The translations under genes and the position numbers were made by a program. Below are positions 8,756 through 62,524 of a stretch of DNA of 64,000 nt, piece by piece. Position 1 is the stretch's first letter. Every line of letters starts with the position of its first letter. A model generated the notes under the pieces. It worked only from the letters and a program-made list of their open reading frames with translations. It made no database searches and was not told the DNA's origin. Source of the stretch: Mucor racemosus (Eukaryota > Mucoromycota > Mucoromycetes > Mucorales > Mucoraceae). The stretch is taken from positions 4,712,001-4,776,000 of the forward strand of contig JAPEHQ010000001.1 of assembly GCA_027405735.1 (NCBI GenBank), in the 5' to 3' direction.

Positions 8756-8756
8756 A

Positions 8757-13264: not shown

Positions 13265-13374
13265 GCCATTGATATCTGTCCGAAAAGAAGAGCTAATACC
13301 AGAATATAAAAATTAAGCACCAAAATCGAAATTTCGAATTTTTGTACTCGCAAGAAGATAGATCCAGCTGAAAA

Positions 13375-26890: not shown

Positions 26891-27631
26891 ACTAAGGCTC
26901 TTAGATTATGGTATATATCCAAGGTTTAAATAAAAATGCGTTTTTTTTTTAACTTTTCTTATATTTAACCACGTACGGTCTGAAAATTCAGACTTTGTAG
27001 CGGACATTTTCGGGCCTCATTTTATCCTTACCAACACTCATGATTTTGATCAAAAAACACAAAAATCAAATTTTGATACCAAATTCAACGTTTAAATATA
27101 CTACATTATGAGAGAAAATTGTAGCCCTGACTAATACGTATTTTATAAAAGCTTAATATTAAATGTTAAGTAATGAAACTTAGCATTTTTGGCCCAAAAA
27201 CGATTTTTTGATTAAACGATTTTTATGTAATATTTTGCAATAAAACGGGTTGTCATTTTTTATTGAGCAAATAGAGCGCTAAACTCTGTATATGTGTGTA
27301 TTTTTTGTTTTTATAATTGGTAGTATAATTAACTCTAGATTTGCAAAATCAGAAAAAAAAAATTTAAAAAATGTCAAAATTGATGATCTGGACAAGAATA
27401 ATTTTTAAAATTAATATTCCGCTTCTAAGCCTTGCAAGTCTTAAAAATAAGAGATTTTATAATACTTGAGAAATTTTCAAGAATTTACAATGCTGTAACC
27501 ACTTGATTCAAGCTTATTACTGTAACCCTTTATACATGTTAATATTATGTGGTAGTTTATTTGATGATAATATAGTCTTACGTTATAATTATTGCGCTAG
27601 AGGTGATTTACATTGAGTTTTAGTCTTACCT

Positions 27632-27843
27632 CTCCAATATCATAAACATAAACATGGCCATAACTGGAACCCATTGCCGCCTTTTTCCTTCTTTGTACCA
27701 AGCTAATTTATTCAATGCTTTACCAGAACCAACTTAAGTATTTACAAATGGTTCCTTGGTATTTTCATTCAAATTCCATAAATTAAATTGACTGGTTCCA
27801 TCTACAGTAGTATCAAACGTATCATCAGCCCGTCTTATGATAA
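27632..27843 (-). pseudogene. Dynein intermediate chain-like fragment, copy 3 (best preserved)
   Basis: On the minus strand: VDGTSQFNLWNLN, then EPFVNT, a stop codon, VGSGKALNKLAW and YKEG, then a frameshift before a segment that should read HVYVYDI. The order and spacing fit the C-terminal WD40 blades of cytoplasmic dynein intermediate chain (LWNLN, then ALNKLAW, then DGHVYVYDIG). The stop after VNT sits where other copies also have TAA or TAG. Confidence 0.65.
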
Positions 27844-27845
27844 AT

Positions 27846-28230
27846 ATCAATTTGAAATCAGAAACATTCCACTGTCCTTGTTATAAGATATGAAAAGCTT
27901 GATTTTTAATAATAATACAGCAATTAAATAAAAGACAAAATGATACTACTAATCGCATATGGTGAGTATTCAACATCTAGTTGAGTTTAATAAAGAATGC
28001 TTTTGAACCCTTTTGAAAATCCTGAAGCAAACACAACATCTTGGTCCTGTAATTTCTATACATCAAAATGTCGCAATTTTCACCACACAATGAAAGCACC
28101 TTTTATCAATTTTGACCTCGTTTTACATTGAGTATCAGTGTTTTAGTTACCAGTTGTATTTTCTCTGATTCATTGATATTCGATCATATTGAACAATAGT
28201 GTATTAAATTAAAATCTACTGGTATACTGT
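27846..28230 (-). repeat. R2 block, copy 2
   Basis: Inverted relative to 7783-8755 and directly attached to the dynein-like fragment, where R1 copies d, f and g have an LTR-B instead. Confidence 0.5.
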
Positions 28231-30126: not shown

Positions 30127-30655
30127 TGTTGTATTCTACCTACTAGTATCATACATTATCACCTTTTACAGTATCAATACATCTTACAATCTATTGACTA
30201 CGACATGTATTGAAGTGCAAGTCTTGATAACGGATATAAGAAACTCCTAGCGTATCAAGTTTAATCCAGTAATTACCAAGAACGCTTTGACCTCAATTAT
30301 GACACCACATTATTTCATCCCAACAGTTAACCAATCAAGTAGCTATCAAATCAACATCCAAGCATATTTAGCGCAGCATTGAAACAAGGCAACTCACAAG
30401 GTCTGCAAGAACGGTTAAATTATGATTGATCCATTTCAATCCATAGATTACTATCAAACAGATCCAATGGTTCAATAGTGCCTTAAATTATATCTCAGGA
30501 TCTCAATGCCAAATCAATATAAAAGGCCGTACTTTTTTATCTAAATAAACGATATCTTGTTTTTATTATACAGTTGAAGAACTGATTAATTACTCATTCT
30601 TTTATAATTGTATTCTTTTTTAAGTACTATTTATCAATCCTGAAAATATACGACA
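30127..30655 (-). mobile_element. Solo LTR-B (529 bp)
   Basis: Starts TGTTGTATTCTACC, ends TATACGACA, with the exact duplication CTAAT (30122-30126 and 30656-30660). The uninterrupted site is in copy c near 24440. This defines the full LTR-B. Confidence 0.88.
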
Positions 30656-31638
30656 CTAATAACGGATTTAACTTGAAAAGTATAAAATGGTATAACCGGA
30701 TTCAAAAAAAGTCCATAAAATCACAAATTTAAAGGATTTATATATAGAAGCCACTACGGCCAACCTGTGCTGCACAAGATGATTTTTTTGTGCCCAGGTG
30801 GGTTGCACACTATAGCCTGATGAGTTGTTGCGCCCACTGAATAATAATGGCTAAAAAGATAACAAGATGCACATGGGCACAACAAAACACTATGAAGAAA
30901 CTGCACACGAGCATAACGAAAAGCCCGTATGTCCAGAGTTATAGATTCTGTCCGTTTGCATGACATTAATCCCATGTGTGCATAATAGTAGAATTGCCCA
31001 TAAGCATATTATTATCCCTATTTGGGCATAATAATAAAATCTGACCATGAGCATAATGAGCTGATCGTATGGGCACAAATTGGTTTGTATATGATGAGCA
31101 TCGTGCCGTTCTCAAAATTCCATTGCATTTTTTACTGGACTACTAATGGGTTTTTAATTACATTTGATTTTATTGATGATATAGATTATAAATAATACAA
31201 TTTAATACGTTGTTGATGAAGAGCAATACATGCAACTGCCAATATATTTACGATTAACATCATTTGTAAATATGTTTATAGCTATAATATCTGCAGCAAC
31301 AATGGTTTTTGCTCCAGCATAAACTTGAATAACACTTACTGCTTAAATTTATATGCAAGCCAAATCTAAGATTACATATTTTACTTTATCACTCATAAAA
31401 TTTAAACAAATTAACCTTCCTTAAACTCACTAATTTAGTTTACGATTGTCAGCTGTAAAAAGATTTATTTTCAAGTATACAGTAGCTATGATCAAAACTA
31501 CAATTATTATACAAAACATTAGATTATACTTTTTTTTTTTTGTTTCTATATCATTTGAAATTTTATCACTTTTCTTGAACATTTCGTGAGTTTGTAGCCA
31601 GTTTAAGCTTTTCATTGAGTAGATATAAATATCATTGC

Positions 31639-31948: not shown

Positions 31949-33119
31949 ATTGCCTTCGATTTGATCTGGTAATCAAGAAATACGTCAAATAACACAGTCG
32001 TAAATAATGCTATTTGATCTTAAAATGCAGTTAATTATAAATGAAAATATCAGCCTCTAGTATAACGACTGCTACCTATCTTAAAAACATTAGCCACTTA
32101 TGTTAGAATGCGTATTCAGATATAAGAAAAGAATACCAGCTTGATAGCCTGATATGCCTTATCAAACGGTGAATAATATCATCCTTGGAAGATGAAAACA
32201 AAAAGAGAAAAACAACACACGTAAAATTTTTTTTTTAAAGCTTTACATTATTTAGCGCATCTAAAACCCTGCTAAATTGCACATTTCAGCCAATGTAAAA
32301 GCAGCGTTACAGCACATCAACCCATAAACTAAGCAAAATAGGCAATATCTGCTATCATAGAAACATACATTTTTCTACTAGAAAAACTGTCTGTCATATC
32401 ATAGATTTATTAAAAAAATTCAAAAGCGAGCCCGTAGAGCGACGCCATAATCGAGCATAACACGATCGAAGGGCTAAGTCTTTTATACTATGGTATATAT
32501 CTAAGCTTTAAATGAAAATGCGTTTGTTTTTTTTTACTTTTCTTATATTTAACCACGTACGGTCTGAAAATTCAGACTTTGTAGCGGACATTTTCGGGCC
32601 TCATTTTATCCTTACCAACACTCATGATTTTGATCAAAAAACACAAAAATCAAATTTTGATACCAAAATCAATGTTTAAATATACTACATTATGAGAGAA
32701 AATTGTAGCCCTGACTAATACGTATTTTATAAAAGCTTAATATTAAATGTTAAGTAATGAAACTTAGCATTTTTGGCCCAAAAACGATTTTTTGATTAAA
32801 CGATTTTTATGTAATATTTTGCAATAAAACGGGTTGTCATTTTTTATTGAGCAAATAGAGCACTAAACTCTGTATATGTGTGTATTTTTTGTTTTTATAA
32901 TTGGTAGTATAATTAACTCTAGATTTGCAAAATCAGAAAAAAAAATTTAATTTTTTTTTTTTTTTTTGTTTGTAAGTATGAAGATTTATTAATGATTAAA
33001 AGTCTGGTTTAAAATGAATAAACTCATAAAATAAAAGAAATATTAATGGAATTAATAGGACTATAATAAAAAGGAGAGCGGGTGTAATAGTAAGTGACCC
33101 GTCTCGGGGAGGCAAAGAA

Positions 33120-36100
33120 CTATTTACAAAAGTTTAAAGACGATAAATGTCTCAAGTTGATCATGGCACGGTCCACAACGGATTGATTGTCAAAATCAAC
33201 TGAATCAAAATAATTGCGCCATTTGGCACGCCAGATGGCTGTAATCACACAAGTAACTGCTTCAAAAGTTGAGACCCGAAGAGGTGAGTCCAGGAGACGG
33301 TAATCAGCAAGATTGAGGGCCATTACGTCCTTGTAGAGCTTACCCGGATTGAGAGGTTCAGACGGTACGAAGACCAAAGCGAAGTAGTTCCGCCAAATCT
33401 CATAGTGAGCTGGACAGGTAAACAGCATATGGGAGGTTGTTTCCCGCAATCCACAGTATACGCACATTTCATCAGGAAGACGGAGGATATGAGCCAAATT
33501 TGCCTTGGAAGAGACTTTGTTATGTATCAACCTGAACCACAGGTTACGGGCTGCACTAGGCATTTTAGTGTGGAGAAAAGACGCCATCGTGAGTCGATTT
33601 AGATCCACCTGAGATCGGTTTATGGGAGGATGATCTCGCATATACATATCACGGAGCTGGGTATTAGTCATGGACAAGACCATTATGCCTTGGTAGTTTA
33701 GTTTGTGATAGAGGTACGGAGAAAAGTCAACGCCACCATTCAAAATATCCCTAGGTATTGGGCCAGAGGGAGGAACCAGATAAACCTGGAACTTGGTTGT
33801 AAACTGCAAAGTAGCAGAACTAATTGCTCTTGTAATCTTGTTCAGAAGGCCGGGATTGGAGCACTGGGCTCTTGACTTGAAGACTAAGGAATCCTGAAGA
33901 CGACTTGGTTCTAAAAAGTTATGCACCGGTTTTCGACGGATCAGATTATGTTGAGTAATGCTGGGTTCTGTAGTATCTTGTTGGCATAATGCAGTAAAAC
34001 GTAATTGTAACATAGTTTCCAACGATAATTGACAAGTATCCCAAGAGTCTTGAACGAAGAAAGCGTCCACCGAACGAAGAAGGGGAAGCAGGCAATGTAA
34101 ACCAGAAAGAGGAGAGCCTAGACGATAATTTCGAAACAACAGTGGCAGGTGGGGGTGAGAAGCCCCATAGCTCACTTGAATGAACGTGGACAACGTCTGC
34201 ATTAGAAAGTTAGGTATCGGGCGAGAGACGTTGTTGTCTAGAAGCAGGGCACGCACATATCGTTGTTGTAAAATGTGTTGTTGCACCGTAATATCAATGA
34301 CGGACAGACCACCTAGTTCCTTAGGGGAGTAGATAACTGCCTTCTTCATAGGAGGAAATATCTTGTAGCAAACGAATTGGTACACCATAGAGGAGATCTT
34401 CTTGATGAAGCTAAGAGGTAAAGTTGTATTCCGTAAGAAATGCCAAAAGCGAGCAAGGAAGAGTGAATTAACCATTCGGGCTCGACCATAAACAGAAATG
34501 TTTCGTGTCATATGCCTATCAAGGGAAGCCTGCATTGTTTGTAGTGTTTCCTGACAGAAAGCTTCCCGTTGATCACTACTGAACCAGATAGGGTAACCAA
34601 GGTATTTGATATATGATGGACTAAACGCATCATACCATTGAAATTGGAGCCTACGAGCAAGATGAAACAAATCGGGACGGACCAAGGACCTATTACCAGA
34701 GAGTGGAAATGCCACTGACTTGTGATAATTGACTCGGGCGTTGGACGCTCGACCATAACAAGAGATATGATCTTGAATTGCTTGCAGTTCCTCATTATTA
34801 TTGACGATGACTAACAAATCATCAGCATACGCCAGTAACTTGATAGGCGGAGGTGCCACCACTTGTAGAGGACAGCTTGGATTGACAGCCTTCGTATTAA
34901 GGGAATAACCTTTGATGGTTCGATCATTGATGATAGCCAGTAGCAGTGGCTCCAAAGCAAAGTTAAAGAGAACCGGCGAAATGGAATCACCTTGGCGGAG
35001 GCCGCGCTGTTGAACTACCGTATCAGTCATGAAACCGTTCATATTGATGACAATTTTACTCTTGAAAAACAAATTTTTAATAATCTGGATGAAGATTGAG
35101 GGAAATCCAAACTTGCTGAGGACTTTACAGATGTAGGTTTCGTTTACATAATCATATGCTTTGGCACTATCCACCGCGACACTGATAGCTCGGTTGGAAT
35201 GTAGTTTGGCATCTTCCATAAGGAGTTTCAGTGCCAGACCATGGTCGCCGATGAATCGATTAGGCATAAAACCAGCTTGATGTTGAGTAATAACCTTGTT
35301 GGCAGCACCAATAACCCGTGAATTCAAAATCCTAGTAAAGACCTTGCAGTCAGTATTAATCAGCAAAATAGGTCTCCAGTTAGCAAGATTCCGTAAGTCG
35401 CCTTTCTTTGGAAGAAGAACGATACATGTTTCCTGCCAGGAAGATGGAAAAACCCCTATATTGAGGGCATCATTGTACACAGCAATAACCAATTCTTTAC
35501 AATCCGGATGGGCTAAGATTAACCGAAGAATAGGGTAAGGTAGCCCGTCTCGTCCAGGGCTGCTGACCTTGGGGCATCTAGTGGCAGATTGTAAAATGTC
35601 TTCAATGTCGATTCCAGAAATAATATATTCAGCGTCGTCCACCGAAATAGTGTTCTGGATTCCTCGGAGCAACTTGTCCATTGAGTATCTATGAGTTGGT
35701 TCAGGAGAATATAGGACATTATAGAAGGAATGAACAGCATCTAGCTTGTCCATCGTAGTTGAGCAAGGTACGTTGGATGTTGGATGTGTTATGGTGTCAA
35801 AATTCCGCTGGGCCAACCGACGTTCTGCAGTCTGTTTGAGAAAGCCGACCGAATTTTCATTGTTGTCCAGCCATTGTTTACCAGCTTTCAGAGTTGCATT
35901 TATAGCAATTTCATGTTCAAGTTGGGCGATGGAGTGTTCAACACGCGGTAATTGAGCCTGGAGAGCCGTTTGGTCGTCCTTTAATTGACGTATGAGATGG
36001 TTCCTGGAACTTTGGAGGTCTTTGAGACGCTCTCGACGCCAAGAAGAGCGATTGCTGCAATAAGCTTTGGTCAGTTTCTTAATATAGCCTTTTAGACGAT

Positions 36101-37016
36101 CCCACTTGATCTGGCTACTATCTGAGGAATTAGCAAGAATTTTATGCATAAAGTGTCGAATACCCGAATTGATTTTCTTAACATAGGATTTGTGGTGAAC
36201 CAGGTTTGGATTTGCCCGCCATAATCCTTTACCAGTGTTAGACACCTGGAGACGAAATCGTACTGTCAATAAGTCGTGATCCGTCCATGCATTGGATGTA
36301 TATTCGATGTTATTGTCAAAATATAAATCCTTCAGTTGGCTACCGACCATAATGTAGTCAAGAGTTTTGATGACTTTACCCCGTCTAAAAGTAGGTAATG
36401 TCACAAAAAAAGTATCGCTGTAGTTGTTGTTGCAATCATGGAGGAAAGTATCCGTGAAAGAGACAAATGCTGTAGGTTGTTTACTTGGAGCATTACCAGG
36501 TAAACGTAGATCATATTGAAAGTTAAAATCTCCAGCTAAAATTAGGCGTTCCAAAATATCGGCATAAGAGTCGAGGGATTTGATATGATCGATTAACTTG
36601 TTGTAAAAAATGGTTCTGTTTTGAGGTGAATCCGCAGGAGCATAAATATTGAGAACATAAATGGGCAATAAATTTGGTTCTGCAGGTACAGTTAACTTTG
36701 CTAAAATAATTCTATCATCATCAGATATGTGAATCTTCTCCATATTAATATTTTTGTTGAAGTTGAGTAATCCACATTTTGATGACCATATACTTTGAAG
36801 GGATTGGAATTTTAGATTAAGCATTGCAATCCGATCGTTGAAATTAAGAGAAGGAATATTGGTTTCTTGGCAAGCAAAGATGTCTAAATCTTGCCCCCTT
36901 AAATGCCGAATAAAGGAATCAGATAGTTGAGGATTGTTAATTTTGAGTAGATATCGACAATTAAGTGATCCAAATTTGATATTTAAGGATTTACAATAAT
37001 TATTATGATCACTCAT
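33120..37016 (-). CDS. LINE ORF2: AP endonuclease, reverse transcriptase, CCHC finger
   Basis: A complete 1298-aa ORF from ATG to stop. The N-terminal endonuclease/exonuclease/phosphatase domain spans about 10-255 (CQET near 50-53, AGDFNF 161-166, TDHDLLTV 245-252). The reverse transcriptase is about 500-790, with LRQGDSISPVLF (673-684) and catalytic YADD (730-733). A C-terminal zinc motif CVYC...H...C lies near 1185-1201. The enzyme nicks target DNA and primes reverse transcription from the nick. No stop or frameshift was seen, so it could still be active in trans. It begins 5 nt after the ORF1 stop, suggesting coupled reinitiation. Confidence 0.95.
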   Translation of the reverse strand: MSDHNNYCKSLNIKFGSLNCRYLLKINNPQLSDSFIRHLRGQDLDIFACQETNIPSLNFNDRIAMLNLKFQSLQSIWSSKCGLLNFNKNINMEKIHISDDDRIILAKLTVPAEPNLLPIYVLNIYAPADSPQNRTIFYNKLIDHIKSLDSYADILERLILAGDFNFQYDLRLPGNAPSKQPTAFVSFTDTFLHDCNNNYSDTFFVTLPTFRRGKVIKTLDYIMVGSQLKDLYFDNNIEYTSNAWTDHDLLTVRFRLQVSNTGKGLWRANPNLVHHKSYVKKINSGIRHFMHKILANSSDSSQIKWDRLKGYIKKLTKAYCSNRSSWRRERLKDLQSSRNHLIRQLKDDQTALQAQLPRVEHSIAQLEHEIAINATLKAGKQWLDNNENSVGFLKQTAERRLAQRNFDTITHPTSNVPCSTTMDKLDAVHSFYNVLYSPEPTHRYSMDKLLRGIQNTISVDDAEYIISGIDIEDILQSATRCPKVSSPGRDGLPYPILRLILAHPDCKELVIAVYNDALNIGVFPSSWQETCIVLLPKKGDLRNLANWRPILLINTDCKVFTRILNSRVIGAANKVITQHQAGFMPNRFIGDHGLALKLLMEDAKLHSNRAISVAVDSAKAYDYVNETYICKVLSKFGFPSIFIQIIKNLFFKSKIVINMNGFMTDTVVQQRGLRQGDSISPVLFNFALEPLLLAIINDRTIKGYSLNTKAVNPSCPLQVVAPPPIKLLAYADDLLVIVNNNEELQAIQDHISCYGRASNARVNYHKSVAFPLSGNRSLVRPDLFHLARRLQFQWYDAFSPSYIKYLGYPIWFSSDQREAFCQETLQTMQASLDRHMTRNISVYGRARMVNSLFLARFWHFLRNTTLPLSFIKKISSMVYQFVCYKIFPPMKKAVIYSPKELGGLSVIDITVQQHILQQRYVRALLLDNNVSRPIPNFLMQTLSTFIQVSYGASHPHLPLLFRNYRLGSPLSGLHCLLPLLRSVDAFFVQDSWDTCQLSLETMLQLRFTALCQQDTTEPSITQHNLIRRKPVHNFLEPSRLQDSLVFKSRAQCSNPGLLNKITRAISSATLQFTTKFQVYLVPPSGPIPRDILNGGVDFSPYLYHKLNYQGIMVLSMTNTQLRDMYMRDHPPINRSQVDLNRLTMASFLHTKMPSAARNLWFRLIHNKVSSKANLAHILRLPDEMCVYCGLRETTSHMLFTCPAHYEIWRNYFALVFVPSEPLNPGKLYKDVMALNLADYRLLDSPLRVSTFEAVTCVITAIWRAKWRNYFDSVDFDNQSVVDRAMINLRHLSSLNFCK

Positions 37017-37021
37017 AATAA

Positions 37022-38173
37022 TTATTTACGGGAAGCATGGTTGGCAGATTGCTTCTTCATCACAGCAGATCCACCGGTGCGAGATCGAGTAGAAAGTCGT
37101 ACTAGATCTTTGTCATTTGACTTAGCAGCGTTCATCTTCGTCGGCTTCCTGAGATGAGTCCTCAATTTACATTTCATTGCTTTAACCACATCTTCTAGAG
37201 GAATTTTCGTAGCTTTAGCCTCCTTTTCTGCTTCTGCCATATCCACATCAATTTCATCATCATCCTCATCTCCTTCAGAATCTGACATCTCAGCATCCGA
37301 CTTCTCTTCCGATGACTGATTTGATATCTCATCATGGTCAGTTGCTGCTTCAATGCTCTTGTTGGAATCCTCGTAGACTATTTGTGAATCCTGAGGAGGG
37401 ACTGAAGTATCTTCTTCGGTAATGGTTGCTTCTGGAACTGAACTAATTGATGTTGGAGCAACTGGCGCCGAAACTACTATTAATGCCGCTGAAGTATCTT
37501 CCTTCTCAGTGGATGCCTGATGCACAGGCTTAGATTCATCAGGCACAGTAATGGGTGCAACTACCGTCTTTGTGGTAGCTTTTTGGTTTGGTGATGTGTG
37601 TTGAGAATTCAATTTAGCAGACTTCTTGCGCTTATTCCACCAGGCATCTGGACATTTAGCTTGTAGATGATCGGTTTTATTGCAGATAAAGCAACTTTTA
37701 AGTCTCTGGCCCATAACTGGACAGTTGCCAAGAACATGGTCAGTGACATGGCAACGACTACATATAGGTTTCATGCCAGTAAAAGTAAGCTTCAAGGTTT
37801 CCTTGGGTTCCCAGGAGTCAATTTGAGGTACCAATTTCTCATAAGATTTACCCGGAAGAAGGTTCAAGGTAACAAATCCTCGGCCAGTAAAGAAATGGCT
37901 GTGAGTAGTGCAAAGTAGACCCATTTCCAGAATCTCCCCGTATTTAACGAAGATTTTGGACATTTCAGCCTTCAAGATCTCTTCATCATCGTAAGGTAAA
38001 TTGCTAATGCTAACCCTAACAATGGTAGTGTCCTTAGGAAAGGTACGACTAACAATGACTTTCTTTCCTTCATACTGAAAATCTTTTTTCAAAGCTGCCT
38101 CTCTGGCTTCAGCTGTACGAAAATTAACTTCTAAATATTTAGAATCTTTATTGACATTTCGGGTACGAAGGCC
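37022..38173 (-). CDS. LINE ORF1: RRM-like plus two zinc knuckles, lacks its start
   Basis: The frame is open from the element's 5' end (38173) to a TAA at 37022-37024. There is no upstream ATG; a TTG at 38092 is only the first alternative start. Residues preceding it (SKYLEVNFRTAEAREAALKK) are coding-like, so the true N-terminus was lost by 5' truncation. Counting from 38092: an RRM-like region at about 22-77 (VRVSISNLPY ... RGFVTLNL) and zinc knuckles CX2CX4HX4C at 111-124 and 134-147. Then a long Ser/Thr/acidic linker and a basic C-terminus. ORF1 proteins of this kind bind element RNA. Confidence 0.88.
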   Translation of the reverse strand, partial: GLRTRNVNKDSKYLEVNFRTAEAREAALKKDFQYEGKKVIVSRTFPKDTTIVRVSISNLPYDDEEILKAEMSKIFVKYGEILEMGLLCTTHSHFFTGRGFVTLNLLPGKSYEKLVPQIDSWEPKETLKLTFTGMKPICSRCHVTDHVLGNCPVMGQRLKSCFICNKTDHLQAKCPDAWWNKRKKSAKLNSQHTSPNQKATTKTVVAPITVPDESKPVHQASTEKEDTSAALIVVSAPVAPTSISSVPEATITEEDTSVPPQDSQIVYEDSNKSIEAATDHDEISNQSSEEKSDAEMSDSEGDEDDDEIDVDMAEAEKEAKATKIPLEDVVKAMKCKLRTHLRKPTKMNAAKSNDKDLVRLSTRSRTGGSAVMKKQSANHASRK

Positions 38174-38194
38174 AAAAAAAAAAAAAAAATTTAA

Positions 38195-38708
38195 AAAATG
38201 TCAAAATTGATGATCTGGACAAGAATAATTTTTAAAATTAATATTCCGCTTCTAAGCCTTGCAAGTCTTAAAAATAAGAGATTTTATAATACTTGAGAAA
38301 TTTTCAAGAATTTACAATGCTGTAACCACTTGATTCAAGCTTATTACTGTAACCCTTTATACATGTTAATATTATGTGGTAGTTTATTTGATGATAATAT
38401 AGTCTTACGTTATAATTATTGCGCTAGAGGTGATTTACATTGAGTTTTAGTCTTACCTCTCCAATATCATAAACATAAACATGGCCATAACTGGAACCCA
38501 TTGCCGCCTTTTTCCTTCTTTGTACCAAGCTAATTTATTCAGTGCTTTACCAGAACCAATTTAAGTACTTACAACTGGTTCCTCGGTATTTGCATTCAAA
38601 GTCCATACATTAAATTGACTGGTTCTATCTACAGTAGTAGTATCAAACGTATCATCAGATCATCAGCCCGTCTTATGATAAATGTCAATGTCGCATATTT
38701 TCAGGTTA
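38195..38708 (-). mobile_element. R1 copy d, second part, with dynein-like fragment (copy 4)
   Basis: Continues R1 after the LINE. It carries the 61-codon region and, at about 38455-38680, the dynein-like fragment on the minus strand. It ends in about 20 bp of a truncated LTR-B (TGTCGCATATTTTCAGG) before unique sequence. Confidence 0.65.
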
Positions 38709-50470: not shown

Positions 50471-51540
50471 CAGGAACTGTGTTAAACTGTTTGTCATATC
50501 ATATATTCATTAAAAAATTGCAAAAGAGAGCTCGTAGAGCGACGCCGTAATTTAGCATAGCAAGATCGAACGACTAAGTCTCTTAAATTATGGTATATAT
50601 CCAAGGTTTAAATAAAAATGCGTTTTTTTTTTAACTTTCCTTATATTTAACCATGTACTGTCTGAAAATTCAGTTTTTTTAGCGGACATTTCCGGGCCTC
50701 ATTTTATCCTTACCAACACTCATGTTTTTTATCAAAAAACAAAAAAATCAAATTTTGATACCAAAATCAACGTTTAAATACATTACATTGTGAGAGAAAA
50801 TTGTAGCCATAGCTGATACGCATCTTATAAAAACTTAATATTAAATGTTAAGTAATAAAAATTTGTAGTTTTGTCCCAAAAACGTTTTTTTGGTTAAAGG
50901 ATTTTCATGTAATATTTTGCAATAAAAATGTTTGTTATTTTTTATTGAGCAAATAGAGCGCTAAATTTTGTATATGTGTATATTTTTTGTTTTTATAATT
51001 GGTAGCATAACTAACTCTAGATTTGCAAAACCAGAAAAAAAAATTAAAAAATGTCAAAATTGATGATCTAGACAAAAATAATTTTTAAAATTAATAATCC
51101 GCTTATAAGCCTTGTAAGTCTTAAAAATAAGAGATTTTATAATACTTGAGAACTTTTTCAAGAATTTACGATGCTGTATCTACTTGATTCAAGCTTATTA
51201 CCGTAAATCTTTATACCTGTTTGTATTGTGTGGTAGTTTATTTGATAATAATATAGTCTTACTTTATAATTATTGCGCTAGAGGTGATTTACGTTCAGTT
51301 TTATTCTTAATTCCTCTCCAATATCATAATAAACATAAACATGGCCATCGTTGGAACCTATTACCGCCTTTTTACCCTCTTTGTCCCAAGCCAGTTTATT
51401 CAACGCTTTACCAGAGCCAAACTATGTACTTACAAATGGTTCCTCGGTATTTACATTCAAATTTCATAAATTAAATTGACTGGTTTCATCTACAGTAGTA
51501 GTATCAAACGTATCATCAGCCCGCCTTATTGTAAATGTCA
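50471..51540 (-). mobile_element. R1 copy e (partial) with dynein-like fragment (copy 5)
   Basis: An R1 core running to a dynein-like fragment on the minus strand at 51315-51535. Here the fragment reads NTEEPFVST, a TAG stop, FGSGKALNKLAWDKEGKK, then GSNDGHVYVY. The WDKEGKK form matches my recollection of fungal dynein intermediate chain better than WNKEGKK in other copies. Confidence 0.65.
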
Positions 51541-52540
51541 ACCTAAAATTAGAAACACCCCATTGTCATTTTTATAATTTATGAAAAGCTTGATTTTTAA
51601 TAATGCAGCAATTAAAAAAAACAAGATGATACTAATAGCATATGTTGAGTATTTAATATCTAAGTAAGTTTGATGGAGTATGTATTTAAATCCTTTTAAA
51701 AATCCTGAGGGAAATACAACATCTTGGTCCTGTAATTTCTATCCATCAAAATGTTGCGATTTCCGCTACATAATGAATGCACCTTTTATCAATCTTGATC
51801 TCGATGTATATTGGGTAACAGTTTTTTACCAGTTGTATTTTCTCTAATTCATTAATGTTTAGTCATATTGAAGGATGATTTGTAGCATTGCCAAAAAAAA
51901 AAAAAAAAAAAAAAAATGCTCCAAGAGTTTTCTGCATATCAAATTATGCAAATTAGTAACAATGATTGAACTCAACTATGCTTTTTGAGCCTATTGATGT
52001 TAATCAGAATAATTAGTACTTTGTACTTTTATTCAAAAGTATGCTTTTCTTTATATATTCACATTCGCACATCTAATAAATGACATTGAATTTATTATTC
52101 ATCATATCAATCAACCAACTTTATCTTTGAGAGTTATGTGTAGTAGTGTAGATAACGATTATTTCCAATACAAATAAAATAAAGACTACAAGCGATTATA
52201 TCGCGGAGAACGTAGGGTCTTTATTATTAAGTTAAAAAAGGAAGCCAGGAGCCATCAGGTCCTGGATTCTAAAAGTATTTATACCATTTCAATTCCATTT
52301 GGATGTCAGGTTCAATATGGGATTGAAATGAGATTAACATAAATAATAGGCAAAAACCTACAATCTTGATTCGATACATTTGACAATTAGATACCTAAAT
52401 TACACTTGTAAGCCACCAGGTATCTCCACGAAACAATTCCGTACAGGTCGACGTTGGATCATTTTTTACGTTCATAGATCTGAGCTCTCCTACACATTTA
52501 TAGATCTCTGGATAAACTGTAGGTTTTTGCCTATTATTTA
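51541..52540 (-). repeat. R2 block, copy 3, with poly(A) tract
   Basis: Inverted relative to 7783-8755. It contains an A-run of about 24 at 51893-51916 and the solo LTR at 52128-52362. A frame of about 65 codons (QDVVFPSGFLKGF..., minus strand) is open across about 51540-51740. Confidence 0.5.
52128..52362 (+). mobile_element. Solo LTR-A variant, second insertion
   Basis: 235 bp from TGAGAGTTATGTG to AAAAACCTACA with the exact duplication ATCTT (52123-52127 and 52363-52367). The R2 copy near 7970 shows the uninterrupted site (CCAAGATGAAGTTGG). Confidence 0.88.
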
Positions 52541-52542
52541 TG

Positions 52543-52954
52543 GAAAGCAATAATAATATTTATATTTTTATTTACTCATTAAAAAGCTAAAAATGGCTAC
52601 AAACTCATGAAATGTTCCAGAAAAATAATAAAATTTCAAATAATATAGGAATAAAAAAAGAGAGTAATCTAATGTCTTACCTAATAACCATAGTTTTGAT
52701 CGTAGCTATACCTGAAGAAAACAAATCTCTCTACAGCTGACAATCGTAATAAACTAAAATAGTAAATTTAAAAAAGGTTAATTTGTTTAAATTTTATGAG
52801 TGATAAAGTAGTAACATCTATAAATAATCTTAGATTTGGCTTGCATATAAATTTAAGCAATAAGTATTATTTAGGTTTATGCTCGAGCAAAAGTCATTGT
52901 TGCTGTAAACATTATAGCTATAGTATAAACATATTTACAAATGATGATAATCGT
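52543..52954 (+). repeat. R1 internal fragment
   Basis: The R1 part that carries the transmembrane-like frame, in dynein-sense orientation, joined to LTR-B at 52955. Confidence 0.5.
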
Positions 52955-53483
52955 TGTTATATCCCGCCAAGTATCATACGTCATCACCTTCTACAGTATC
53001 AAGATATCTTACAATTTATTGACTACGACATGTATTAAAGTGCAAAGTCTTGTTATGGGATATAAGAAACTCCTAGCGTACTACCAAGTTTAATGCAGTA
53101 ATTACCAAGAACGCTTGGACCTCAATTATGACACCATATTATTATTTCATCCCAGCGGTTAATCAATCAAGTACTTATCAAATCAACATCCAACAAGCAC
53201 AATTAGCGCAGCATTGAAGGAAGCCAACTCACAAGCACTGAAAGAATGGTTAAATTATGATTGATCCATTTCAATCCATAGATTACTATCAAACAGATCT
53301 AATGGTCAGTAGTGTCTACATCTCAGAATCCCAATGTCAAATCAATATAAAAGGCCATACTTTTATATCTAAATAAACGATATCTTGTTTTTATTATACG
53401 ATTGAAGAACTAATTCATTACTCATTCTCTTTTAATTGTATTCTTTTTTAAGTATTATTTATCAAACCTGAAAATATATGACA
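52955..53483 (+). mobile_element. LTR-B, left LTR of R1 copy f (529 bp)
   Basis: Starts TGTTATATCCCGCC, ends AAATATATGACA. Same length as the solo LTR-B at 30127-30655. Confidence 0.75.
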
Positions 53484-56400
53484 TTGACATTTATCATAAG
53501 GCGGGATGATGATACGTTTAATAATACTGCAGATAGAACCGTTAATTTAATATATGGAATTTAAATGCAAATACCGAGGAAACATTTGTAAGTACTTAGG
53601 TTGGTTTTGGTAAAGCATTGAATAAATTGGCTTGGAACAAAGAGGGTAAAAAGGTGGCAATAGGTTCCAGTGATGGCCATCATGTTTATGTTTATGTTTA
53701 TGATATTGGGGAGAGGTAAGGCTAACATTTAATGTAGATTACCTCTAGCGCAATAATTATAAAGTAGCACTATATTATCATCAAATAAACTACCACACAA
53801 TATTATCATGTACAAATATTTACAGTAATAAGCTTGAATCAAGTGGGTACAGCATCGTAAATCCTTGAAAAAGTTCTGAAGTATTATAAAATCCCTTATT
53901 TTTAAGACTCACAAGGCTTATAAGCGGAATATTAATTTCAAAAATTATTCTTGTCCAGATTATCAATTTTGACATTTTTAATTTTTTTGTTTCTGATCTT
54001 GCAAATCTAGAGTTAGTTATACTACCAATTATGAAAACAAAAAATATACACATATACAAAATTTAACGCTCTATTTGCTCAATAAAAAATAACAAACATT
54101 TTTATTGCAAAATATTACATGAAAATCCTTTAACCAAAAAAACGTTTTTGGGACAAAACTACAAATTTTTATTACTTAACATTTAATATTAAGCTTTTAT
54201 AAAATGTGTATTATCTATAGTTACAATTTTCTCTCACAATGTAGTATATTTAAACGTTGATTTTGGTATCAAAATTTGATTTTTCTGTTTTTTGATCAAA
54301 ATCATGAGCATTGGTAAGGATAAAATGAGTCACCAAAAATGTCCGCTACAAAAACTGAATTTTCAGACAGTACATGGTTAAATATAAGAAAAGTTTAAAA
54401 AAACCCGCATTTTTATTTAAAACTTAGATATATACCATAGTAAAAGAGACTTAAGCATTCAATCTTGCTATGCTCAATTAAGGCGTTGCTCTACGGGCTC
54501 GCGTTTGAAATATTTTATTGAATTTATGATATGACAGACGGTTTTTCTAGTGGAAAATTTTATATTTCTATTATAGTAACAGATATTGCCTATTTTGCTT
54601 ATTAATATATAGTTCAGGCGCTGTAATGCTGCTTTTACATTGGCTGAAATGTGCAATTTAGGAGGGTTTTTTTGAATGCGCTAAATTTTTATATCAAAAG
54701 ATACTAATATAAAAATACTCTGCTAAAAGATACATTTTATTAATTCATTGATGCTTCATATTTATACAGTATGTTTTCTAGATAATTATATAATTATTAA
54801 TATTATTAATAAATTGCCAGGTATTCAGGTACTTGATATGATTTGGGAACAAATCATATACAATGGAATTTCTGGAATTGTGAATATGTGATTGTATCAT
54901 TTGGATAAGATGTAGGATTGCTTATGTTTCATTGTTGCCAAGTGTTCCTGGATGTTCCTGATAGTCGCTGTTAATGCTAGTGGTCATGTCATGTTGGATT
55001 TCAATAGTTGTTCCTGGATTTCTACATCTGGTTAAACTTCTGATATATCATAAATAATTTAAAGCCTTGAAAATCCTCTTCTACGTATGTTTCTCTCTTT
55101 TTGTTTTCATATTCAAGGATATGATTCACCGTTTCATAAGGCATATCAGTTTGGTATTATTTTCTTTTATCTGAATACGCATTCTAACATAAGGGACTAA
55201 TGTTTTTAATATAGTAGGTAGCAGTCGTTATATTAGAAGAGATTTATATTTTCACTTAACCGCATTCTATGATCAAATATCATTATTTACTACTGTATTG
55301 TTGAATGTATTTTTTGATTACCAGACCAAATCGAAGGCAATGATATTTACATATCTACCCAATGAAAAGCTAGAACTGGCTGCAACCCAAGAAATAGTCC
55401 CGGAAAGTGATAAAATTTCAAATGTTATAATAATACAAAAAAAGAATAATCTGATGTCTTGCCTAATAACCATAGTTTTGATCGTCGTAGCCATGCTTGA
55501 AAACAAATCTTTTTACAGCTGACAATCTGTAAACTAAACTAGTAAGTTTAAAGAAGGTTAATTTGTTTAAGTTTTATGAGTGATAAAGTAACATCTATAA
55601 CCTTAGATTTGGCTTGCATATAAATTTAAGCACTAAGTGTTATTTAAGTTTATGCTCTAGCAAAAACCATAGTTGCTGTAAACATTATATCTATATAAAC
55701 ATATTTACAAATAATAATAATCGTAAATGTATTGGCTCTTGCATGTATTGCTCTACATCAACAACGTATTGAATTATATTGTCTATAATCTATATTATTA
55801 AAAGCAACAAATGTAATTTAAAAACCCATTCCAGTAAAAAATACAATGGAATTTTGAAAACGACACGGTCCCATGTACAAACCAATTTGTGCCCATTCGA
55901 TCAGCCCAATATTATGCACAAATAAAAATAATGATATACTTATTATGGGCAATTCTACTATTATGCTGCACACATGGGATTAATGTTATGCGCACGGACA
56001 GAATCTATTATAATTCTGCACATACAGGCTTTTTGTTGTGTTTGTGTGCAGTTTCTTTTGTTGTGCCCATGTGCAGCACCTTGTTATCTTTTTAGTCATT
56101 ATTCAGTGGGCGCAACAACTCACCAGGCCATAGTGTGCAGCCCACCACCTAGGCACAACAAAATCATCTTGTGCAGCACAGGTCGGCCGTAGTGCTCTTA
56201 TATATAAATCCTTTAAATTTGTGATTTTATGAGCTTTTTTTGAATCCAGTTGTATCATCTTATACTTTTCAATTTCAATCCGTTATAAGGCTAATAATGT
56301 TATAGTTGTATTTATGCTTTACTTGAAATAAGCCTTTGAATAATTGATAGCAGCAATACAGCCGAAACTTAATTTTTGTATGAAATTTCGACACCTGCAT

Positions 56401-56558
56401 CTTATAGATGCTTGTAGTATTTAAACAGCCGCTTCCGGGCTGCCCGGTAATTTTTTATAGAAATTTAAAGCTTGGAAATATCATTAGATGGCCGCTTCCG
56501 GAGATTGTTCGGCTTTTTTGGAAGAGTGACCATTGGCAAAAATATGACTCATAAACTA
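53484..56558 (+). mobile_element. R1 internal region, copy f (complete, about 2.7 kb)
   Basis: Runs LTR to LTR. In order: dynein-like fragment copy 6 (53490-53718), AT-rich core, 60-codon frame (54474-54656, -), solo LTR-H (54687-55050), transmembrane-like frame (55298-55522), motif cluster (55870-56180), GC-rich box pair (about 56430-56510). After removing LTR-H it is about 2706 bp. There is no gag, protease, reverse transcriptase or integrase frame, so this is a non-autonomous (LARD-like) arrangement. I could not identify a convincing primer-binding site or polypurine tract. Confidence 0.7.
54687..55050 (-). mobile_element. Solo LTR-H (364 bp)
   Basis: The insertion ends TGATATATCA at 55041-55050, with the exact duplication TAAAT (54682-54686 and 55051-55055). 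The uninterrupted site is GCGCTAAATAATG as in the inverted copy near 32250. Confidence 0.8.
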
Positions 56559-56747
56559 TGTTGTATGCCACCAAGTCCCATATGTTATCACCTTCTACAG
56601 TATCAATACATTTTACAATCTATTGACTACGAAATGCATTGAAGTGCAAAGTCTTGATATTATCGGATATAAGAAACTCCTAGCGTACCAAGTTTAATGC
56701 AGTAATTACCAAGAACGCTTGGACCTCAATAATGACGCCATATCATT

Positions 56748-56939
56748 TGTTTTACCAAAACTAATAAGAATTATACAAGAGTAAACGGTGTAGTTTTATT
56801 CAATGTAGAGAATGAGCTAGCGAGATTATATATCAGAAGAGATTATCAAGTGATACAGCAGCCGTTAATAGTGTAACAATAATAATATTCTGATAATACA
56901 ACTACTGTTGTAAGGCTATATCTAGATTCTGATATAACA
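56748..56939 (+). mobile_element. Solo LTR-G (192 bp)
   Basis: TGTTTTACCAAAAC to GATATAACA, flanked by TCATT and TTATT (one mismatch; the uninterrupted LTR-B reads TTATT). Confidence 0.65.
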
Positions 56940-57138
56940 TTATTATTTCATCCCAGCGGTTAATCAATCAAGTAGCTATCAAATCAAAAACATCCAAGCA
57001 CATTTAGCGCAGCACTAAAGCAAAGCAACTCACAAGCTCTGCATTAACGGTTAAATTATGACTGATTCATTTCAATCGATAGATTGCTATCAAACAGATC
57101 TAATGGTTTAACAGTGCGTGCGTTAAATTACATCTCAG

Positions 57139-57754
57139 TAAATTGTCAAAGAAACAATATAAAAAGAATAACAATTAGAAAGAACAAAAATGATCAGTTT
57201 CTCAACTGTTATAAAAAATCAGAATAATGATAAAATTTTATTAAGAAGTAAAATATGGTTGCTTTTATATGTTTTAGGTGTTATGGTTATCTCAGACACC
57301 ATCACACTATTATAATCCTTTTAATTATATCATGGGAATAATCATCAAATTATGCCTTAAGGATTATTCATCAATAATCCAGCCAGCACAAATCCATACG
57401 TTGCGATATTTGTGTGATGGTGTAAACGATATGGAAATTGAGATTATTAACACTGTGGGAATTGTCTTCTTTGAGCGTTGTGAGAATTAGTCTTTTGTTC
57501 ATGATTATAAATGTGAGAAATAAGTTTGAATTATACTGTAGTATTACGATAGAAGGAAGTGGACAAATATGGCCGAATACAAACCACTGTTTATAGAATT
57601 TATAAGGTGTAACACATATGGACTATGTCGTGGAGGTAAAATATACCATTTATGGACATGTTGAATTTAGAGTTTCAATGTTACTTCAAATGTTTCAATT
57701 TGGATCTGGTAGTTGTTAACATTGTAGAAGGCGGCATATACAATTGACACAACA
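57139..57754 (-). mobile_element. Solo LTR-I (616 bp)
   Basis: The insertion has inverted ends TAAATTGTCAA and TTGACACAACA and the exact duplication CTCAG (57134-57138 and 57755-57759). The 70-codon frame inside (57278-57490) has no domain. Confidence 0.75.
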
Positions 57755-57915
57755 CTCAGGATCTCAATGTCAAATCAATTTAAAAGGCCATACTTTTATA
57801 TCTAAATAAACGATATCTTGTTTTTATTATACAGTTAAAGAACTGATTCATTACTCATTCTCTTTTAATTGTATTCTTTTTTAAGTATTATATATCAAAC
57901 CTGAAAATATACGAA

Positions 57916-59515
57916 ATTGACATTTATCATAAGACGGGCTGATGATCTGATGATACGTTCGATACTACTACTGTAGATAGAACTAGTCAATTTAATGTAT
58001 GGATTTTAAATGAAAATACCGAGGAACCACTTGTAAGTACTTAAGTTGGTTTTTCTGGTAAAGCATTGAATAAATTGGCTTAGAACAAAGAGGGTAAAAA
58101 GGTGGCAATAGGTTCCAGTGATGGCCATCATGTTTATGTTTATGTTTATGTTTATGTTTATGATATTGGAGGAGGGGTAAGACTAAAATTTAATGTAGAT
58201 TACCCTAGCGCAATAATGATAAAGACTACATTATCATCAAATAAACTACCACACAATATTATCATGTACAAATATTTACAGTAATAAGCTTGAATCAAGT
58301 GGGTACAGCATCGTAAATCCTTGAAAAAGTTCTCAAGTATTATAAAATCTCTTATTTTTAGGACTTGCAAGGCTTAAAAGCGGAATATTATTTTAGAAAA
58401 TTATTCTTGTCCAGATCATCAATTTCGACATTTTTTAAATTTTTTTTTCTGATTTTGCAAATCTAGAGTGAATTATACTACCAATTATAAAAACAAAAAA
58501 TATACACATATACAGAATTTAGCGCTCTATTTACTCAATAAAAAATAACAAACATTTTTATTGCAAAATATTACATAAAAATTCTTTAACCAAAAAACCG
58601 TTTTTGGGACAAAAGTACAAAGTTTCATTACTTAACATTTAATATTAAGCTTTTATCAAATGTGTATTAGTTATAGCTACAATTTACTCTCACAATGTTG
58701 TATATTTAAACGTTGATTTTGGTATCAAAATTTGATTTTTCTTTTTTTGGATCAAAATCATGAGCATTGGTAAGGATAAAATGAGGCCCAAAAATGTCCG
58801 CTACAAAGTCTGAATTTTCAGACCGCACGTGGTTAAATATAAGGAAAGTTAAAAAAAGACGCATTTTTATTTAAACCTTGGATACAGTATATACCACGAT
58901 CTAAGAGACTTAGTCGTTCGATCTTGCTATGCTCAATTACGGCGTCGCTCTACGGGATCGTTTTTTCAATTTTTTAATGAATATATGATATGACTGACGG
59001 TTTTTTTTAGTAATAGAAAAATGTATGTTCCTATGATAACATATATTGCCTATTTTGTATATTAGTTTGTAATTCATGCGCTGTAATACTGCCTTTACAT
59101 TGGCTGAAATGTGCAATTTAACAGGGTTTTAATTGTACTAAATAATTTAAAGCCTTGAAAATCCTTTTCTACGTGTGTTGTTTCTCTCTTTTTGTTGTTT
59201 TCATATTCCAAAGATATACTGTATTTACCGTTTGATAAGGCATATCAGACTATCAAGCTCGTATTCTTTTCTTTTATCTGAATATGCATGCTAACATAAG
59301 AGACTAATGGTTTTAATATAGGTAGCAATCTATTAAGTTAGAGACTGATATTTTCATTTATCCGCATTCTAAAATCAAATATCATTATTTACTACTCTAT
59401 TATTGGACATATTTCTTGTTGATTACCAGATCAAATCGAAGGCGATGATATTTATATCTACTCAGGAAAAAGCTAGAACTGGCTACAAGCTCACGAAATG
59501 TTCCAGAATGTTAAT
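57916..59515 (+). mobile_element. R1 copy g (partial)
   Basis: Starts exactly where copy f's internal region starts (TTGACATTTATCATAAG), carries dynein-like fragment copy 7 and the core, and stops near the LTR-E insertion. Confidence 0.65.
57925..58175 (+). pseudogene. Dynein-like fragment, copy 7, with expanded hexamer
   Basis: Contains GKALNKLA, KEGKKVAIGSSDGHH and then five GTTTAT-type units coding VY repeats before DIGG. Other copies have two or three units, so the coding hexamer has expanded. Confidence 0.6.
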
Positions 59516-59525
59516 GATTTATCAA

Positions 59526-60126
59526 TGCAGTGGAATTACATACTAAAAACGCTTGATAAAATAAAACAACCTAAATTCCAAGTGTCGCTCATAAGATATG
59601 ATGCCACTTGAAATGTAAACAACAATAATAAACAAACACTTCAATTGAACACAATAACAAACGCATGCTAAAAATATGAAATACCCTTTTTGAACCATAC
59701 ATGTCGTGTAGATGATAGCACCCTTGATCACGGCGCAATCAATTACACAAATGACATATATATCAAAACAGGATTCTATCCAAATCAATAATGATAATAA
59801 ACAAAAATATCAATTTAGTCAACTACTCATCTATATCGTAGTTGCACTATCAATATAAATAAGATTCAAGCATATAAAAACTACCCCTTAAAATATCAAA
59901 TCAATAACAATGTACTCAAAACTGGAAGATTACTAAATGTACATCCATACAAGTCTGATGGTATCCAAGTTCTCCAAATCACTATAAATACCCTCATACT
60001 TTTCAATTATTTTAACTCTTCAGAAATCTTTTGTAATAAAAACTTTAGCTGATTATAATTGTACTTCTACTGCTTTTATTTTTTATATTTTTTTTATTTT
60101 AGTAAATAACATCATAATTTACTGCA
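59526..60126 (+). mobile_element. Solo LTR-E, copy 2 (601 bp)
   Basis: TGCAGTGGAATTA to TAATTTACTGCA with the exact duplication ATCAA (59521-59525 and 60127-60131). Inverted relative to copy 1 and lacking about 127 bp. Confidence 0.85.
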
Positions 60127-60131
60127 ATCAA

Positions 60132-60470
60132 AATATGTTTAGGTTAAATAAAAACTAGAAATTTAATCTAGTAAAGAGATATCGTTTATTGGAATGAAAT
60201 TATTAGGGTTTATATACTATTTGATTTGGGGAATTAATGATGTGATAAGGTAGTTTAGATGTTATTTAATATCAATGTGTCATGTTGGTATATCATGTTG
60301 GAATATCGAACTGGCATATTATGCTTTTGTACCATGCTTCTATACCATGCTTTTAGGAGCATGGTATAATTAATATTCAGTTAAGTAACTTCCGGTTCCG
60401 AATCTGTTATTGTTTACTTTTTTGGGTTTGACATGATCCGGTTTAAGAATGATACATCAGTTAAATCTCA
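60132..60470. repeat. LTR-like AT-rich sequence
   Basis: Resembles LTR leader sequence (AGAGATATCGTTTATTGG). It contains a palindromic ACCATGCTTTTAGGAGCATGGT near 60340-60365. No boundaries could be set. Confidence 0.35.
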
Positions 60471-60780
60471 TTTCGGTCCCATATTGAGCCTGACATCCAA
60501 ATGGAATTGAAACGGTATAAATACTTTTATTAGAATCCAGGACCTAATGGCTTTTGGCTTCCTTTTTTAACTTAATAATAAATACTACCTTACGTTCTCC
60601 GTGATATAATCACTACTTGTAGTCTTTATTTTATTGTATTGGTATTGGACATGACCGTTATCTACATGTAGCTCTCAATCTTGTTTTTATTATACAGTTG
60701 AAGAACTGATTCATTACTCATTCTCTTTAATTATATTCTTTTTTAAGTATTATTTATCAAACATAAAAATATGTGGCACA
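60471..60780 (-). mobile_element. LTR-A copy
   Basis: Inverted LTR-A, from the TTAAATCTCATTTCGG end to ATATGTGGCACA. It is not joined to R1 internal sequence and no duplication was found. Confidence 0.55.
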
Positions 60781-61059
60781 GCAGGTGGTTTCATTGGACA
60801 GAAATATCATGTTTTGCTGATGGTTTTCTCAATTCACAGTGATTTATTGAGAAAGTAGAAATATAAATTTTATGCAGGATATATTTAAATCTATCATCAT
60901 GTATAACTGGAGATTAATTGGATTAATATTCACAAGAATGGGGGTTTTTTCTTTGATTTCTGCAGTTGTACATATTAGTTTATTATTTTGTAAAACTTAA
61001 AACTCATTATCCAGGGCTTAATTTCTGTATTCACAAGATAGGTCTAATTGATTGCTACT
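60781..61059. other. Unassigned sequence between LTR-A and X repeat
   Basis: AT-rich; nothing recognised. Confidence 0.35.
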
Positions 61060-62125
61060 CTGCATTTTTTGTTTTAGCAAAAAATATTGATTTTTCATCG
61101 AGATAACCAAAATAATAGTTTTTACCACAGCTTAAAACCTATCATAACGGGCTTCCAAAATTTATTTTAAAAAATGGGCAAAAATGCTGAAAAAAACAAA
61201 ATTCTTCTAAAGCTCGTGAATTGCAAAGTAAATTGACCTAGTGTATTAAATGATTTTTGTACAGTTTTAAATTTTGCATCCATCTATGTAAAATTTGAAA
61301 AACTTTTTCACGTAAAATTTTGCGTAAAATGCAATTGAAATTTTGGAGGTTTTTTGAAGATACACATCACTTTTTATAAGCATATTTAAAGTACAATTAC
61401 TGGCAATAATGTACAAACAAATCATCTATCGATTGAACTATTGCAAAAAATTTTAGCTGCATTATTCGTAGAGAAAACAACATTTTTGTCCGCATTTTTT
61501 TCTGTTTCAGAATTTGGGATGAGGGTATATAAGGGGAAAATGGACGCTAGAAATGGAGGTACCTTTTTGTATACATTTTTGAGGATATCTCCACGAAAAA
61601 TCAATATTTTGAAAAACTCTGAATTGGATCTGAGAGAGCTCAACGAGCTGGATGACATGAATGCAAAAAAAATGTTGCTCAATTTAATCAATATTTTGAA
61701 ACCTACTATAGAAATGTCAAAAAAAATGAAAAAAAAATAAAAGTGCTCAGAATTTTTTTATATTAAAATATGTTATAGAGCACTTTAAAACAAGTAAGTT
61801 TTATTATTAAAAAGTGTTAATATAGCTTAATATTTTCTGGAGATATGAAGCCTCAAAGTTTTCAACCCGTTAGCAGTGAAATACGCGTAAAAAATCTGAA
61901 ACCTTAGCACTGAAAAATTAATACCAACTGTAAAAAGTAGGATATTTCCGGATACTTGTTTTTAGATGAAAGGTGAACATCTCAGGTACATTGGCATATA
62001 ATTTTTTCTCGATGTTATTTAGTGAAAAAAAAAGTTAGGTAGGGATGAAAAGTGAGACCCAGTTTCTAAGGAAAATGCAGCAGATTTTACGTGTTTTTGA
62101 GCCTTTCATGAGATATAAAATAAAT
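61060..62125 (-). repeat. X-family repeat, copy D
   Basis: Inverted X copy. Both frames are kept open: 61441-61740 (+, 99 codons, MRVYKGKMDARNGG ... LRELNELDDMNAKKML) and 61422-61691 (-, 89 codons, SSLSSLRSN ... FPLYTLIPNSE). Confidence 0.75.
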
Positions 62126-62524
62126 TTAGGTATAAGTAACATACTATGTTGAGTCGAGTAATGCCTATTAGTGCGTTATAGAGCCATGTGCCAAATGAAT
62201 AATTTACCTGTTGATTGGGCCTGCAGTAAAATGGGGAGTGAAAAAGCGATAAAAGAATACTGCTGTTAAAATCCTTCTTTATTAAAATATGGATAATGTG
62301 CAATAAAATGGTTATTCTACTTCTCTATTTATATTATTTGGTGATTATTTACTATCTGACAATTGTGTTGCAATTGTCAGTGATTCCGTTACTTTTGAAT
62401 GTAAAAGTTAATTTATGCTTTCCTTTTTCACGCAATGTTTGTGAATTCCTTTGTGGGTTTAGATTTCATTTGAATATTTACTAGTAATGTGATATGATTT
62501 TTATTGCATTTCATATATTACTCT
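62126..62524. repeat. LTR-J-like 5' end and gene-flanking DNA
   Basis: From 62232, TGCAGTAAAATGGGG and the following 170 bp match LTR-J at 24911. The far end does not match, so the element is partial. The rest is 3' flank of the protease gene. Confidence 0.45.

Follow-up and report, generated by a model that had tools for sequence, protein, structure and literature searches.

A 3' fragment of a dynein intermediate-chain gene, captured with an intron and multiplied in non-coding mobile DNA of Mucor racemosus

The 3' end of the dynein intermediate-chain (DIC) gene of Mucor racemosus, with an intron and 3' flanking DNA, has probably entered a mobile unit and multiplied in stages. In the first of these (D copies), the unit would have extended from a mid-exon start at host 2410 (host positions are gene-sense coordinates of the host DIC locus) through the intron, the last exon, the 3'UTR and the flank, with some 240 bp repeated directly, before the unit and at its right end. 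A deletion at a short homology would then have removed the last exon and the 3'UTR of the D unit together with most of its intron. In a third stage, a shorter piece would have come to lie inside B, a non-coding element about 4.4 kb long whose terminal inverted repeats read CACTACGGCC and which has reached well over 1,000 places, presumably by cut-and-paste with a transposase acting in trans. Finally, a B copy within the 3' part of a retrotransposon of the LTR-B family may have lost its left part, which would have brought the left LTR up against the start of DIC; the resulting unit (type A) has reached at least 19 places, including positions 53484-56558 of the window. The window is the whole 64,000-nucleotide stretch analysed (contig C1, bases 4,712,001-4,776,000, of a 53.2-Mb genome in 54 contigs), and is AT-rich, with 28-44% GC in 2-kb steps.

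The likeness to DIC, proposed in a sequence-only reading of the window, is real. A 68-residue composite, merged from the window copies with an X at one stop, matched cytoplasmic dynein 1 intermediate chain 2 (E = 5.3e-14, 55 bits), about 10 bits above the next-best WD40 protein (44 bits). Neither of the contrary outcomes named in that reading, a lack of any DIC match or a match to an autonomous element's own protein, occurred. A search of the genome with the Pfam Dynein_IC2 profile gave no match, and is uninformative because 14 controls likewise gave none. The segment had been claimed at seven places in the window, and all seven were located:

6447-6717, minus strand: DIC fragment, with the LTR junction at 6719/6720
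8745-8846 and 9574-9744, plus strand: DIC fragment of a B copy, a single copy split by an insertion at 8847-9573
27606-27850, minus strand: DIC fragment of a B copy, continuing upstream into B
38433-38688, minus strand: DIC fragment that retains some 19 bp of LTR upstream
51314-51541, minus strand: DIC fragment of a B copy, continuing upstream into B
53484-53740, plus strand: DIC fragment abutting the left LTR-B, the first segment of the internal region
57917-58201, plus strand: DIC fragment abutting an LTR, at the start of the second tandem unit

The further claim that every copy stands next to one LTR holds for four of the seven (6719, 38688, 53484 and 57917) and fails for three (8745, 27850 and 51541), which run upstream into element B.

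Across the genome, a DIC-exon 24-mer allowed up to 3 mismatches found 1,606 matches (763 + 843), a total that counts the donor and D copies too, and its reversed-pattern control found 0. A search with the DIC fragment returned at least 150 matches (the best 150 of 2,359 first-look candidates), one of which is the host exon at C4:386017. The aligned part is free of stops in 30 of these best 150 rows, the host being one of the 30, and the host CAA at host 2577 reads TAA in 28 of the 44 B and A copies compared. Three DIC copies of equal score (C6:2843407, C20:4987 and C49:5428), two of them about 5 kb from the contig start, are perhaps a subtelomeric duplication. A protein search with one open copy returned eight relatives, of which P0002-P0006 look like pieces of relatives' intact genes. 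P0001 and P0008, on short contigs, bear the signature of the repeat (DGTSQFNLWNLN or GTSQFNLWNLN) where the host has DGTGQFDLWNLN, so the repeat seems present in other public records.

The host DIC gene is still present on contig C4, where the exon ending in YDIGE precedes an intron, the last exon (VATPKPDDWSLLQKNISEMISNQENPNGAK, stop) and the 3' flank. It was located with the upstream WD40 part of the protein as query, and the frames were then read. Finding the host gene and aligning introns had been proposed as a check, and intron-bearing repeat copies do align to this locus. Within the best 40 of 1,569 candidates, 33 of 52 non-self rows start in mid-exon at host 2405-2420, and none starts earlier; of the 52 listed, 21 stop at host 2708-2711 and 9 continue past the 3'UTR. 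Two copies (L043 and L044) run from host 2418 or 2410 to host 3838, including the intron, the last exon and the 3'UTR, and the first part of the intron is kept in L034, L041 and L030. Processed, mRNA-derived copies would have no introns, and the intron is present in L043 and L044. Its retention therefore argues against capture of spliced mRNA and for that of unspliced RNA or genomic DNA, and DNA is favoured as the probable source because the captured sequence reaches far beyond the 3'UTR.

These shared non-coding parts bear directly on whether the whole pattern could be chance WD40 similarity or an assembly artefact. WD40 motifs are common, and many copies lie in near-identical inverted pairs, but the margin of about 10 bits, the non-coding flank and intron shared with the same gene, and the occurrence of copies with different flanks on many contigs leave this explanation a negligible chance; chance similarity in particular is refuted because the homology extends to non-coding DNA.

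Shared deletions link the longer captures to the shorter ones. L034 and L041 are without host 2711-3043, and at the ends of this deletion AATGTAAATCAA (intron) and AATATAAATCAA (flank) are nearly alike; a short-homology deletion is likely because these 12-mers are near-identical. L030, which we take as a B copy, shares the 2711-3043 deletion and has lost more of the 5' part of the exon. In a tree of host 3043-3781 (44 sequences, after five shorter pieces and most inverted twins had been removed from the 53 gathered), the D copies L034, L036, L040, L043, L044 and L046 fall outside the B and A group, with split support of at most 0.68, and L041, which is D by structure, falls among B copies. Mean divergence is 0.164 for D copies (L041 included) versus 0.090 for B copies, and the host flank lies at a distance of 0.12 from B, versus 0.16 among D copies. 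The stage order that we infer rests mainly on the shared deletions, because the split of D from B and A is weakly supported and L041 is misplaced.

The ends of the D copies raise the question of which came first, the gene piece or the element. Just before host 2410, with a gap of at most 8 bp, L036 and L044 carry host 3813/3816-4046/4050, and parts of the same segment precede the DIC start in L034, L040 and L041. The repeat of about 240 bp is found at the right end too in L040 and L041, after about 325 bp not in the host; the host locus holds a single copy of the repeat and is without the 325 bp. Degenerate short tandem motifs (TCTCGCTACGCTCG...GTCGCCCTGCGGGCTC), recurring about every 100 bases, were observed at L041:2280-2892, at L044:2900-3300 and in the host 3' flank. 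It is possible, if somewhat doubtful, that the element came first, lying just downstream of the DIC gene (from host ~3043 on), and gained DIC by read-through or through a circular or tandem intermediate; on this view, the direct repeats of 240 bp in D would represent small LTR-like terminal repeats or a circle junction (host 4050 joined to host 2410). The passage from host 4046/4050 to host 2410 within 8 bp in L036 and L044, the second 240-bp copy at the right end of D in L040 and L041, the lone copy in the host without the 325 bp of D, and a host flank-B distance not above that between D copies all agree with such an order, but the 240-bp repeats show no TG...CA ends, and the DIC-less L046 resembles a 5'-truncated D and not an older element (among the best 40 of 1,577 candidates).

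For the staged capture of the DIC 3' end, which we prefer, the main carrier is element B, which is non-coding, about 4.4 kb long, and holds the DIC cargo between its inverted ends. Measured along locus L030 from the DIC start (position 0), the homology shared by copies stops at -2005 and +2352; both ends read CACTACGGCC into the element, and the DIC piece at 0-257 lies between these termini. The flanks differ at 13 left-end rows (11 independent loci) and at 10 right ends outside LTR context. A 19-mer fitting both ends with up to 2 mismatches has 1,689 genome matches (877 + 812), and its control has 1. Three termini of B copies in the window were identified by terminus match:

12296-12355, minus strand: left terminus of a B copy (TACTACGGCC...)
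24539-24598, plus strand: right terminus of a B copy, in LTR context
30752-30811, plus strand: right terminus of a B copy, in LTR context

In L030 the longest open stretch that B contains, of 94 codons, is the DIC piece itself, and eight of the longest open stretches of L030 and L019 contained no other domain, with only sub-cut-off WD40 scores in the DIC stretch. Transposase_21 (PF02992) has two genome matches, both with stops and neither linked to B, and cut-and-paste movement by a transposase encoded elsewhere is what we infer for the spread of B. CACTA (EnSpm) transposons make a 3-bp target site duplication. A 3-bp duplication (TTC) surrounds B at L019 only, one of six two-ended loci, and none was found at L018, L020, L023, L025 and L030, several of which are rearranged or in LTR context. 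B may be called CACTA-like by its CACTA-type termini, its membership being unproven. At B position -345, two unrelated upstream sequences adjoin shared B (window 28197, L016, L021, L027 and L028), so a second structural form of B exists; there is no terminal motif where the alternative sequences join. With a host gene fragment between terminal inverted repeats and replicated across the genome, B corresponds to transduplication as defined in PMC3538342.

Other structures were observed around B copies. One B copy is interrupted at window 32951-38180 by a LINE (RVT_1, E = 2.7e-29), flanked by duplicated A/T-rich sequence some 13-15 bases long. Members of a further repeat family, each about 1.1-1.2 kb long (13337-14600, 21313-22522 and 61020-62143; 78-82% alike), also occur beside B copies elsewhere. 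Large inverted duplications, with arms at 97.5-100% and spacers of at least 0.9 kb, were seen at window 842-15258 and at L013-L018, L021-L025, L031 and L032, and their arm ends differ by locus. The best 150 DIC rows include 13 inverted equal-score pairs (26 of 150 rows), and two of the seven loci not chosen for pairing (L026-L032) have arms of at least 1 kb at 99% or more. These duplications may be real structure or an assembly effect. The arms of the inverted pairs were also considered as terminal inverted repeats of B, and were rejected, since their ends are not alike across 11 loci and the window palindrome.

The unit at 53484-56558 shows how the same cargo is carried between LTRs. The LTR-B ends described earlier are genuine: the family is 529 bp long with TG...CA ends, and two solo copies have a 5-bp target duplication, namely the one in the window listed below and L025:8688-9220, with CATCT on both sides. 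The remaining seven of nine full-length LTR rows had no such duplication. The relevant features of the window are as follows:

30127-30655, plus strand: solo LTR-B inserted within a B copy, starting TGTTG and ending CGACA, with CTAAT on both sides
52954-53483, plus strand: left LTR-B (52970-53483 = LTR 19-529; TGTTATATC at 52954)
53484-56558, plus strand: internal region between the two LTRs, a 5'-truncated B and about 364 bp before the right LTR
53525-53700, plus strand: DIC exon fragment with stops and indels (host 2504-2673 = 53525-53696)
53731-54480, plus strand: homologue of the host DIC 3' flank (host ~3043-3781), by sequence match
54687-55050, plus strand: insertion present in few copies, by comparison with other copies
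56136-56194, minus strand: right terminal inverted repeat of B (CACTACGGCC...), by terminus match
56559-57914, plus strand: right LTR-B in three pieces (56559-56748, 56942-57164 and 57755-57914) with two insertions, shared with the next unit
57915-60772, plus strand: second tandem unit with the same LTR/DIC junction, partial LTR at 60678-60772, right limit tentative

Position 53484 is the first base past the left LTR and 56558 the last base ahead of the right LTR, giving an internal region of 3,075 bp. The standard internal length of about 2.7 kb given before is recovered by subtracting the insertion of about 364 bp at 54687-55050, which is matched at two other places only among those scored, and retroviral genes are absent from the region, as had been said. 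The second unit directly follows the right LTR, so we read 52954 to about 60772 as two tandem units with a shared LTR.

A 200-bp query across the LTR|DIC junction returned 41 rows, at least 19 of which cross the junction at 81-100% identity (best 40 of 2,805 candidates). Three of the 19 are the window's own, and the window copy at 38688 is additional to them. The 22 rows ending near the LTR end are 88-97% identical to the LTR query, so the LTR family has members nearer this LTR than the junction copies. None of 20 DIC loci examined (13 for paired hits and 7 from high rows) coincides with a junction place. The relation of DIC to the LTR, held to be constant, is thus repeated as the same junction at 19 or more places and is absent from three of the seven window copies. 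The left LTR of type A meets the interior of B at B position 0 and runs directly into TTGACATTTATC of B. No primer-binding site was recognised by eye after the left LTR, and no target duplication was seen around a complete type-A unit, so that reverse transcription of A is only presumed. At 11 places compared, the right terminus of B is followed by CTTTTATATATA or a variant of it, some 364 bp ahead of LTR-B in the window copy; many copies therefore inherited a B that had inserted into an LTR-B element.

The sequence-only reading had taken the pattern as transduction of a host gene into a non-coding retroelement that then multiplied. In the form that a non-autonomous LTR retrotransposon transduced DIC through RNA and multiplied it, the LTR-free copies being remnants, we consider this improbable. 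It would account for the constant junction at 19 or more places and for a genuine LTR-B, but those junctions compare with 1,606 DIC matches, the captured piece holds an intron and 3' flank, copies without an LTR share defined CACTACGGCC termini, and the junction lies inside B sequence, which extends upstream in other copies. What stands of the claim is that a fragment was captured and multiplied in non-coding mobile DNA, one carrier being a non-autonomous LTR unit; capture by the LTR element is unsupported. By the same counts, the LTR element is a minor carrier of the fragment, and probably a late one.

We additionally compared codon positions between the host and its copies. With copy-branch changes scored using L043 and L044 as references, the two intron-bearing copy branches have 22, 21 and 12 changes at first, second and third positions, and neither copy shows any sign of coding constraint. 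On the host branch, 20 of 120 third positions had changed, together with 5 of 241 first and second positions and 58 of 1,048 neighbouring non-coding positions. The difference between third positions and non-coding DNA (P = 4.5e-5), like that for host-specific sites across the copies compared (17 of 59 third positions versus 31 of 739 in the flank, P = 4e-9), is optimistic in its P value because the copies share kinship. Third positions of a conserved gene are expected to change no more than non-coding DNA, and a simple single capture followed by neutral drift does not fit the excess. The rate is highest in the exon shared with B, which does not differ significantly from the other coding parts (13/60 versus 7/60 third positions, P = 0.22). 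Gene conversion from repeats into the flank of the host gene, constraint acting on that flank and selection on codons are each possible sources. C-to-T decay of the copies was judged an unlikely cause, because the host-specific differences in the exon number 17 at third positions, 4 at first and none at second. Domains of RNA-dependent RNA polymerase occur at three genome loci, so silencing is possible. As a long shot, the DIC repeats might feed host RNA silencing, and the essential motor gene might answer with synonymous codon changes; if true, a captured gene would be escaping transposon-borne silencing through synonymous change.

The donor, intron-bearing captures, two deletion stages and both TIR and LTR forms coexist in one genome, where one can follow in the sequence how mobile DNA takes up a host gene and remodels it, and where a cargo passes between two classes of mobile element. 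The genome also offers a test case of whether a housekeeping gene with about 1,600 decayed homologues is silenced, converted, or evolving to avoid them. Among the open-licence papers listed, none reports, by title or opening abstract text, a fungal mobile element that carries a piece of a dynein gene. Transduplication in fungi is already known and the DIC case is unusually large; this case is set apart by the intron-bearing capture, the terminal motif, the surviving intermediates, the number of copies and the entry of the cargo into an LTR unit.

The closest precedent is histone H3 in hAT transposons of Dothideomycetes, where the gene was transduplicated in Pseudocercospora fijiensis and relatives, to 784 copies in P. 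fijiensis, with an 8-bp duplication, a hAT transposase, intronless capture and decay by RIP (PMC6710886). There as here, a piece of a housekeeping gene exists as hundreds of decayed copies in a TIR element beside one intact original, whereas in Mucor the capture holds an intron, the ends read CACTACGGCC, no transposase is linked, 1,606 matches are found, and the cargo entered an LTR unit. The histone H3-like transduplication of Pyrenophora tritici-repentis, termed there the first fungal case (PMC3538342), likewise places a host gene between the TIRs of a DNA transposon, but in tens of near-identical copies with a transposase, unlike the diverged, non-coding copies described here. Turmoil-1 of C. 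elegans, a transposable element, holds two host coding pieces (PMC2572040), and these lie within the inverted repeats, whereas the DIC piece lies between short termini. Soybean CACTA elements are reported to carry host gene fragments (PMC1947982), a likeness in both ends and cargo that is qualified by the unproven CACTA membership of B. In rice, miR820 in CACTA elements is described as co-evolving with OsDRM2, their pairing being maintained (PMC3459959); this case of a host gene facing a transposon-borne small RNA is background for the escape reading.
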